In this document: positions 39,944-41,657 of the stretch, one piece after another
How the letters are laid out: the number at the start of each line of letters is the position of its first letter
How positions within the stretch are numbered: position 1 is the stretch's first letter
From: an uncultured Bacteroidota bacterium
GTDB lineage: Bacteria > Bacteroidota > Bacteroidia > AKYH767-A > 2013-40CM-41-45
Length of the DNA: 41,657 bases
Reading direction: 5' to 3'
Assembly: GCA_937871435.1 (NCBI GenBank)
Contig: CALMQM010000031.1
Coordinates: 1-41,657 of the forward strand
Notes under the pieces: model-generated
Seen by the model: only the letters and a program-made list of their open reading frames with translations
Databases searched by the model: none
What the model was told of the DNA's origin: nothing
Position numbers and translations under genes: made by a program

Positions 39944-41509
39944 ATGATAACAGAAGAGGCTGCCGGAAAAAAGTTTGTGACAGAAAGTGGTATTGAAATC
40001 AAGCAAGTGTATTCAGGTCACAATACGCATCCTGAAAAGCCGGGAGAATTTCCGTTTACAAGAGGAGTTCAACCTGACATGTACAGAAGCAAGTTGTGGA
40101 CGATGCGTCAATATGCCGGTTTTTCTACAGCGGAAGAAAGCAACAAACGTTATCATTACTTGTTGGGACAGGGAACTACAGGCTTGTCTGTAGCCTTTGA
40201 TCTGCCGACTCAAATAGGGTATGATTCAGATCACGATTTATCTGACGGTGAAGTTGGCAAAGCCGGAGTAGCGATAGATTCCATACGGGATATGGAAATT
40301 CTGTTTGACAAAATTAAACTGGAGGGTATTACTACCTCTATGACGATTAATTCGACCGCTTCTGTATTGCTTGCATTTTATATTGCACTGGCAAAGAAGC
40401 AGGGAGCAGATCTGAAAAAAATTTCCGGAACGATACAGAATGATATTCTGAAGGAATATGCGGCGAGAGGTACGTACATCTATCCGCCTAAACCCTCGAT
40501 GCGGATCATCACCGACATCTTTGAATATTGCAGTAAAGAGGTTCCGAAATGGAATACAATTTCGATTTCAGGATATCATATCCGGGAGGCCGGAGCTACA
40601 GCAGTGCAGGAACTGGCATTCACTTTATCGAATGGAAAAGCTTATGTAAAAGCTGCCTTGGAAAAAGGTCTGGACATTGATGTTTTCGGAAAAAGACTGT
40701 CGTTCTTTTTTAACGCTCACAACAATGTATTTCAGGAGGTAGCCAAATTTCGTGCTGCCCGGAGAATGTGGGCTGCAATGATGAAAGAGATGGGAGCGAA
40801 AGACCCACGAGCCATGATGTTGAGATTTCATACGCAAACAGGAGGTTCAACGCTTACTGCTCAGCAACCGATGAATAATATTATCCGTGTGACATTGCAG
40901 GCATTATCTGCGGTTCTTGGTGGAACACAATCTCTACATACTAATGGCTATGATGAAGCATTGAGTTTGCCTACAGAAGAAGCGGCACGTATTGCACTCA
41001 GAACGCAGCAAATCATTGCTCATGAAAGCGGGTCAGTTGAAACAGTAGATCCGCTCGCCGGATCATTTTATGTTGAAACTTTGACCGATGAAGTGGAAAA
41101 ACTGGCATGGGAATATATCCGGAAAATAGACGCGATGGGAGGTTCTGTTAATGCGATTGAAGCTGGATATATCCAGAACGAAATCGCTAATGCATCCTAT
41201 GAATACCAGCAATCTGTTGAAAGGAAAGAGAGAATTATTGTTGGTGTAAATCAATTCACTTTGGAAGAACCACCATTTGACAAGCATTTTTCTATTGATG
41301 ACTCCATTCGTGAAGTGCAAATTCAAAAAATACGTACACTGAAAGCATCAAGGAATAATGAGAAGGTAAAAGAGTGTATTCAGTCGATTGAAAGCGCAGC
41401 TAAAGATGGAAGAAACCTCATGCCTCTGATTATCGATGCCGCTGAAAATCTGACTACACTGGGTGAGATTGCAGACGCCATGCGGAGGGTTTTTGGAGAG
41501 TACGAGTGA
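39944..41509 (+). CDS. Acyl-CoA mutase large subunit (methylmalonyl-CoA mutase family)
   Basis: A 521-residue cytoplasmic protein covering the TIM-barrel part of the B12-dependent acyl-CoA mutases: [108 protein letters not shown] and [17 protein letters not shown]. It lacks the cobalamin-binding domain, as separate-subunit enzymes do; no small subunit or B12-binding gene is in the window. The aromatic Y57 that lines the acyl pocket is Tyr as in methylmalonyl-CoA mutases, but K236 stands where the propionibacterial enzyme has Arg. The substrate (methylmalonyl-CoA or a branched acyl-CoA) is therefore not certain. It is the last gene before the terminal repeats. Confidence 0.88.
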
Positions 41510-41526: not shown

Positions 41527-41547
41527 GGTTCCGAGTTCCTGGTTTCG
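41527..41547. repeat. Degenerate heptamers GGTTCCG / AGTTCCT / GGTTTCG
   Basis: Three consecutive seven-base units following the pattern RGTTYCK lie 18 bases after the mutase stop codon. They are the first part of a heptamer mosaic; each unit differs from the others by one to three bases. Confidence 0.5.
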
Positions 41548-41580
41548 TGTGAATTGTAGAGGTTAGGTAAAAGTCCAATT

Positions 41581-41601
41581 GTCCCTCGTCCCACGTCCTT
41601 A
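41581..41601. repeat. Heptamer units GTCCCTC / GTCCCAC / GTCCTTA
   Basis: Three consecutive seven-base units sharing GTCC at their starts, directly before the CCTAATA array. The period of seven bases is the same as in the neighbouring repeats although the sequence differs. Confidence 0.55.
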
Positions 41602-41603
41602 AA

Positions 41604-41657
41604 CCTAATACCTAATACCTAATACCTAATACCTAATACCTAATACCTAATACCTAA
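41604..41657. repeat. Tandem heptanucleotide array (CCTAATA)n
   Basis: Seven complete identical CCTAATA units plus five bases of an eighth run to the right edge of the window, so the true copy number is larger. No mismatches are seen. The array is outside any gene, downstream of the acyl-CoA mutase gene. Confidence 0.97.

Follow-up and report, generated by a model that had tools for sequence, protein, structure and literature searches.

The heptamer repeats of bacteria, known for decades, still lack an agreed explanation. The cyanobacterial STRR heptanucleotide repeats comprise several heptamer families in one genome, as does the genome described here. The GGGAATC repeats of Xanthomonas and the GGGGAYT repeats of Nostoc/Anabaena are heptameric, intergenic, distributed genome-wide and variable in length (Rehm 2015, PMC4692102). 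According to the parts of that paper covered here, close GGGAATC repeat sites are convergent, always with one per strand (70 cases in Xcc and 75 in Xac), and in three genomes the G-rich arrays lie nearer to the 5' neighbouring ORF regardless of its orientation; the cause of the polarity is not given in these parts. The same parts mention Calothrix heptanucleotides and cite a 2007 survey in which heptanucleotide SSRs were over-represented in bacterial genomes (see also the rows for pattern 7n3 in the portion of PMC4060949 covered). The TAACTGA direct repeats are patchily distributed in Beggiatoaceae, Cyanobacteria, and Bacteroidetes, where other heptamers occur alongside and indels are found in seven-base steps (MacGregor 2015, PMC4679880, in the parts covered).

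The window analysed here is a whole contig (C31; 41657 bases) from a 4.36 Mb draft genome in 128 contigs. The first-pass annotation had reported three seven-base repeat families in a row behind a mutase gene, and this layout was confirmed by direct reading and by genome-wide recurrence. The features are as follows:

39944..41509, + strand: methylmalonyl-CoA mutase catalytic (N-terminal) domain, 521 aa, left-hand and last gene (TIGR00641, 770 bits)
41527..41547, + strand: G/T-rich arm made up of three degenerate RGTTYCK units (F family; GTTYCNNx3 recurs genome-wide)
41548..41580, no strand: 33-base linker between the arms, locus-specific (by sequence reading and masked-cluster comparison)
41581..41601, + strand: inner section of the C-rich arm, with three GTCCNNM units (V family; GTCCNNNx3 recurs genome-wide)
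41604..41657, + strand: outer section of the C-rich arm, formed by a perfect CCTAATA array (A family; CCTAATAx3 recurs genome-wide)

The mutase stop codon is at 41507-41509, and 17 bases separate it from the first GTTYC-type unit. The G/T-rich arm reads GGTTCCG AGTTCCT GGTTTCG, the inner C-rich part reads GTCCCTC GTCCCAC GTCCTTA, and the outer part consists of seven perfect CCTAATA units plus CCTAA, so that the contig end falls inside the array. The GTTYC-type units can be placed at 41528-41546 and the GTCC-type units at 41581-41598. The sole report of Tandem Repeats Finder on the window was the last array (41603-41657, period 7, 7.9 copies, 100% matches). Over 41527-41603, period 7 gave 34 matches of 70 and every other period from 4 to 12 gave at most 23; the two degenerate stretches are weak alone, yet they are not chance, because both families recur across the genome. 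An Rfam search of the window at the gathering score gave no RNA family match. The right-hand neighbour was sought via the DivIC-like convergent gene of relatives, and neither the search of this genome with the 109-residue query nor the local search of the fetched stretches gave a match.

As for the abundance of the three families, the own genome has 94 overlapping CCTAATAx3 places, 60 on the forward and 34 on the reverse strand, as well as 79 places with GTCCNNNx3 and 29 with GTTYCNNx3. The reversed patterns, searched as controls, gave 0, 0, and 1 places, respectively. The possibility raised earlier, that no similar arrays exist elsewhere in the genome, is thereby dismissed. A fourth family, GGTTGNT, is likewise common together with its complement. 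In the own-genome stretches read, which came from array neighbourhoods and from one stretch picked regardless of arrays, 54 heptamer clusters were counted, nearly all of them intergenic and only four inside an ORF of at least 100 aa (gene calls here are ORFs of at least 100 aa, made without a gene finder). The window element is one of dozens of intergenic heptamer clusters and no local curiosity. It had been considered that assembly or library preparation could have produced the array artefactually at the contig end. Arrays do break short-read assemblies, and the assembler does break there, since 13 of the 54 clusters touch a contig end; against this, the other 41 are contig-internal, many with a gene on either side, and such arrays also occur in isolates that have long contigs, which makes the artefact extremely improbable.

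A full cluster consists of a left G/T-rich array, a short locus-specific linker, and a right C/A-rich array, and looks alike on the opposite strand. The typical order of families in the own genome is GGTTGNT, GTTYCNN, linker, GTCCNNN, and CCTAATA; in a hand count, GGTTGNT stood before GTTYC in 8 cases to 1, and GTCC before CCTAATA in 15 to 3. The outer families are purer (identity, 0.93-0.94) than the inner ones (0.80-0.82), as if younger, where the identities refer to patterns of unequal degeneracy. The typical order is what would be expected if a mobile composite element (MITE- or REP-like) had spread the whole unit of G-arm, linker, and C-arm. When the arrays were masked and 58 clusters were compared, merely 14 similar pairs were found, all of them short; thus there is no shared element backbone, linkers and flanks not being common to the copies. 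Nor would such an element account for other phyla showing this polarity with heptamers of unrelated sequence (see below), and we consider it very improbable.

The own-genome clusters resemble those of Xanthomonas and Nostoc, as covered above, in that close pairs are convergent, with the G-rich array on the left and the C-rich array on the right. They differ in that those genomes have one family each with identical arms (an inverted repeat), whereas here at least four families occur per genome and the arms are usually unrelated; the typical family order and the occurrence of the rule across phyla are further differences. The unit is neither GGGAATC nor GGGGAYT: the G strand of CCTAATA/TATTAGG has only GG, so that no quadruplex is needed, and the GTCCC units carry GGG on the other strand, but differ from the Xanthomonas/Nostoc unit. 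The TAACTGA repeats and our arrays are both heptamer direct repeats with different units, the unit here being neither TAACTGA nor its complement. The 2007 survey shares a general excess of period 7 with the present case and comes with the idea of polymerase-footprint slippage; it is statistical only, and the two-arm layout is absent from the parts covered.

To examine the polarity, the difference G minus C on the strand as given served as the label of each array. In the own genome, the clusters with both kinds of array between two genes had the G-rich array first and the C-rich array last in 15 of 15 cases, a count that leaves out clusters at contig ends, without a flanking gene, or inside ORFs. 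Among the left-out clusters, L168 (153-565; labelled KMKM), L172, L187, L190, L194, and L197 fit the polarity, L171 (KMK) and L180 (MKM) run into contig ends, and L183 misfits as labelled (MKM). Under a stricter definition of label and gap, all 14 mixed gaps of the own genome started G-rich and ended C-rich. In stretches not chosen for arrays, the same was found in 9/9 mixed gaps of the cyanobacterium Moorena, 2/2 of the class-level genome G042, and 1/1 of other genomes, which brings the total to 26 of 26. Note that single-kind gaps obey the left-right rule weakly (own genome, 15/20; Moorena, 13/23; G042, 4/9). Beside the CCTAATA arrays, among the at least 109 named loci listed, G-rich heptamer arrays, which have many different sequences in the other organisms, lay to the left in 25 cases and to the right in one, and C-rich arrays to the left in 10 and to the right in three, with one array neutral. 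Background base skew was considered as the cause and rejected: array-free gaps lean the same way slightly (own genome, 59 vs 42; relatives, 109 vs 81), and the convergent array-free gaps of relatives lean the opposite way (5 vs 19). The own-genome count could reflect common descent of the clusters, and this is hard to argue across phyla and units. Thus, the clusters are two-armed and polar with arms that are usually unrelated heptamers, under a rule seen also in distant bacteria, which is new as far as our searches go; no general statement of the rule was found in the literature, as judged by titles and abstract openings, with subscription papers mostly outside the coverage.

The position of the arrays between genes bears on a possible function in untranslated regions, by which a C/A-rich, G-poor leader before starts and a G/U-rich trailer after stops would affect translation or mRNA life and thereby select the polarity; the proposal of MacGregor for TAACTGA (PMC4679880, in the parts covered) serves as the comparison. 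The polarity does give C/A-rich RNA ahead of starts and G/U-rich RNA past stops, whatever the gene orientation. In addition, among the named loci listed, 52 of 74 gaps across phyla have the CCTAATA array closer to the gene on the right (p 6e-4; by gap type, ++ 17/30, -- 19/21, +- 14/21, and -+ 2/2), once 28 of 109 loci had been dropped for want of two flanking ORFs and 7 of the remaining 81 for a gap of at least 600 bases. Against this, convergent gaps, which hold no start codon, obey the rule too (L167, L168, L173, and L236), and the flanking genes show no common theme on an unsystematic look. The Maribeggiatoa TAACTGA repeats lie mostly just upstream of start codons in the parts of MacGregor (2015) covered, which is not so for our arrays. 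The mutase was matched in 11 of 11 family genomes, including all 10 family relatives, and no array lay downstream of it in the six of these 10 whose downstream DNA was readable. Selection through the untranslated regions is decidedly unlikely in our judgement.

RNA folding was evaluated against shuffled sequences. The window element folded worse than the shuffles (z +2.42 on the + strand; of 200 shuffles, 199 did equally well or better), and many arm pairs, the window included, are without excess structure. The top-strand z was below -2 in 8 of 32 own-genome pairs, the other 24 being above it, and in 7 of 22 pairs from other organisms, with some below -8; values below -4 were obtained for L167, L168, L172, L174, and L194 and for L031, L052, L057, L064, L080, L098, and L133. 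Own-genome arm pairs were less complementary than pairs swapped between loci; this null mixes element orientations and thus mainly shows that the arms are of different families. The strongly folding pairs are what would be expected of bidirectional transcription terminators or 3'-end hairpins, whose arms fold in RNA and end the transcripts of the flanking genes. Consistent with these, CCTAATA arrays elsewhere sit in convergent gaps in 24 of the 81 classified named loci listed and in divergent gaps in only four, and some arrays lie directly behind terminator-like hairpins (e.g., in Photobacterium and at L034). The poor folding of the window element, the absence from the window of any terminator-like site (stable hairpin plus T run), the 24 own-genome pairs mentioned above, and the lack of a convergent preference in the own-genome clusters (-+, 9; ++, 9; --, 8; +-, 7) speak against it, and a role in termination appears quite improbable.

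As for relatives, 60 were searched, 10 of them from the same family, and all lack CCTAATAx3; other heptamer arrays occur in stretches of relatives that were picked irrespective of arrays. In these stretches, period 7 accounted for 5 of 11 arrays at the family level, 2 of 20 at the order level, and 11 of 23 at the class level; in array-unbiased samples, it accounted for 17 of 26 arrays in G042 and for 64 of 98 in 160 kb of Moorena. Several array-unbiased samples have seven as their most frequent array period; this dominance is not universal, because the order-level relatives show only 2 of 20. No heptamer arrays were found in the 50 kb of E. coli K-12 examined. Among named genomes, at least 109 stretches, from Bacteroidota, Ignavibacteria, Cyanobacteria, Chloroflexota, Proteobacteria, and others, carry the 28-base CCTAATA pattern. 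Heptamer arrays are lineage-specific in sequence, not in kind. The density is extreme in Moorena (L334-L341; the 64 arrays mentioned above), with AGGGAGT, TTCCCGA, AGCTATC, and GCGGTCA among many families. In Kordia (L048 and L073), CCTAATA units are embedded in longer tandem repeats with a period well over 100 bases.

The turnover of arrays could be followed at one orthologous Photobacterium locus with the same two flanking genes (5 of 14 loci, L301, L304, L305, L306, and L110, had no anchor and were left out). CCTAATA units number 10 in P. phosphoreum, 12 both in P. piscicola and in L298, and 8 in P. kishitanii; L299 has a CTTAATA array, L300 mixes CTTAATA- and CTTAATG-like units in a mosaic, and L303, L307, and L308 lack the array. 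Position and seven-base period are constant there, and unit count and unit sequence vary. The CCTAATA cores decay evenly at their two edges (11.34 vs 11.66 matches of 21; chance, 5.64; 96 cores; p 0.51), and no directional growth at one edge was seen in these cores. The Photobacterium changes and the symmetric fading are what slippage or unequal exchange leaves; thus, heptamer arrays are probably turned over by slippage at a constant period, the direct evidence being the one Photobacterium locus. The first-pass annotation had suggested slippage-driven turnover of one ancestral array: the turnover holds, and the single ancestor of the three families is unsupported, because the families recur together, mostly in the same order (GTTYC, GTCC, and CCTAATA), in two arms, of which the first family forms the G/T-rich one and the others the C-rich one. 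None of the results hints at the other suggestion of that annotation, a protein or RNA that would bind in a seven-base register.

The same data bear on a telomerase-like reverse transcriptase (DRT10 type) that would add repeats to DNA ends before end joining. DRT10 enzymes produce tandem-repeat DNA (PMC12632851, in the parts covered), and their action would yield G-rich strands pointing inwards from both flanks, as observed, a polarity that is that of head-to-head telomere fusion. The genome encodes one RVT_1 protein, a Drt3a (NF041747; 227.8 bits vs the cut-off of 200). Nevertheless, a search of 32 array-bearing genomes (31 of them hand-picked from those behind the listed named-genome loci), some of which are drafts in which a reverse transcriptase could be missed, gave RVT_1 in only 16, and none was found in the array-rich G068 (108 places), G083 (88), G065 (45), G082 (31), and G085 (20). 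The array edges fade symmetrically, the Photobacterium arrays change in place, and the units are far too diverse in sequence to come from one template, which leaves a telomerase-like origin highly improbable. The Drt3a-type antiviral reverse transcriptase, the sole RVT_1 protein, is located at L295:2-715 (matched part, G000:C54:32-526) and is truncated by the contig start; the adjoining ORF has a dCTP-deaminase-like domain, and the contig is rich in heptamer arrays.

Our preferred reading, which we consider likely as a whole, is that the cluster consists of heptameric simple sequence repeats with slippage turnover in a two-armed layout, G/T-rich on the left and C/A-rich on the right. Slippage or unequal exchange would add or remove units in seven-base steps, and new unit variants would sweep through the array while the period stays seven. 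We infer that the arrays have no positive function for the cell and are tolerated where the harm is small. Slippage alone accounts for neither the polarity nor the recurrence of the same families in the same order. As for the origin of the polarity, we can offer a guess: a G/T-rich nascent 3' end might fold back and copy itself, which would leave an inverted C/A-rich arm lying 3' of the G/T-rich end, on either strand, and the two arms would then drift apart through independent slippage, so that strong hairpins would be young inverted pairs and heterotypic pairs old ones. Against such fold-back of the G-rich nascent strand, complementary arms are predicted, yet most pairs, the window included, are not complementary. 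A more general proposal, which we put forward only tentatively and regard as unlikely, is that heptamer arrays across phyla are the footprint of one directional DNA-synthesis process, in which G/T-rich 3' ends flanking an intergenic site would approach each other as they grow by seven bases at a time (through fold-back or break extension), so that G-left/C-right would be a near-law with the unit free to change. If a strict rule for unrelated units in unrelated phyla is true, the cause should be directional and unit-independent, and the rule would make a long-standing curiosity testable.

Higher-order tandem duplications, with units of about 36 to 150 bases that comprise a G-arm/C-arm composite in full or in part, were also observed at L168:2528-3013, L191:2524-2977, L177:1304-1477, and L189:2590-2715.
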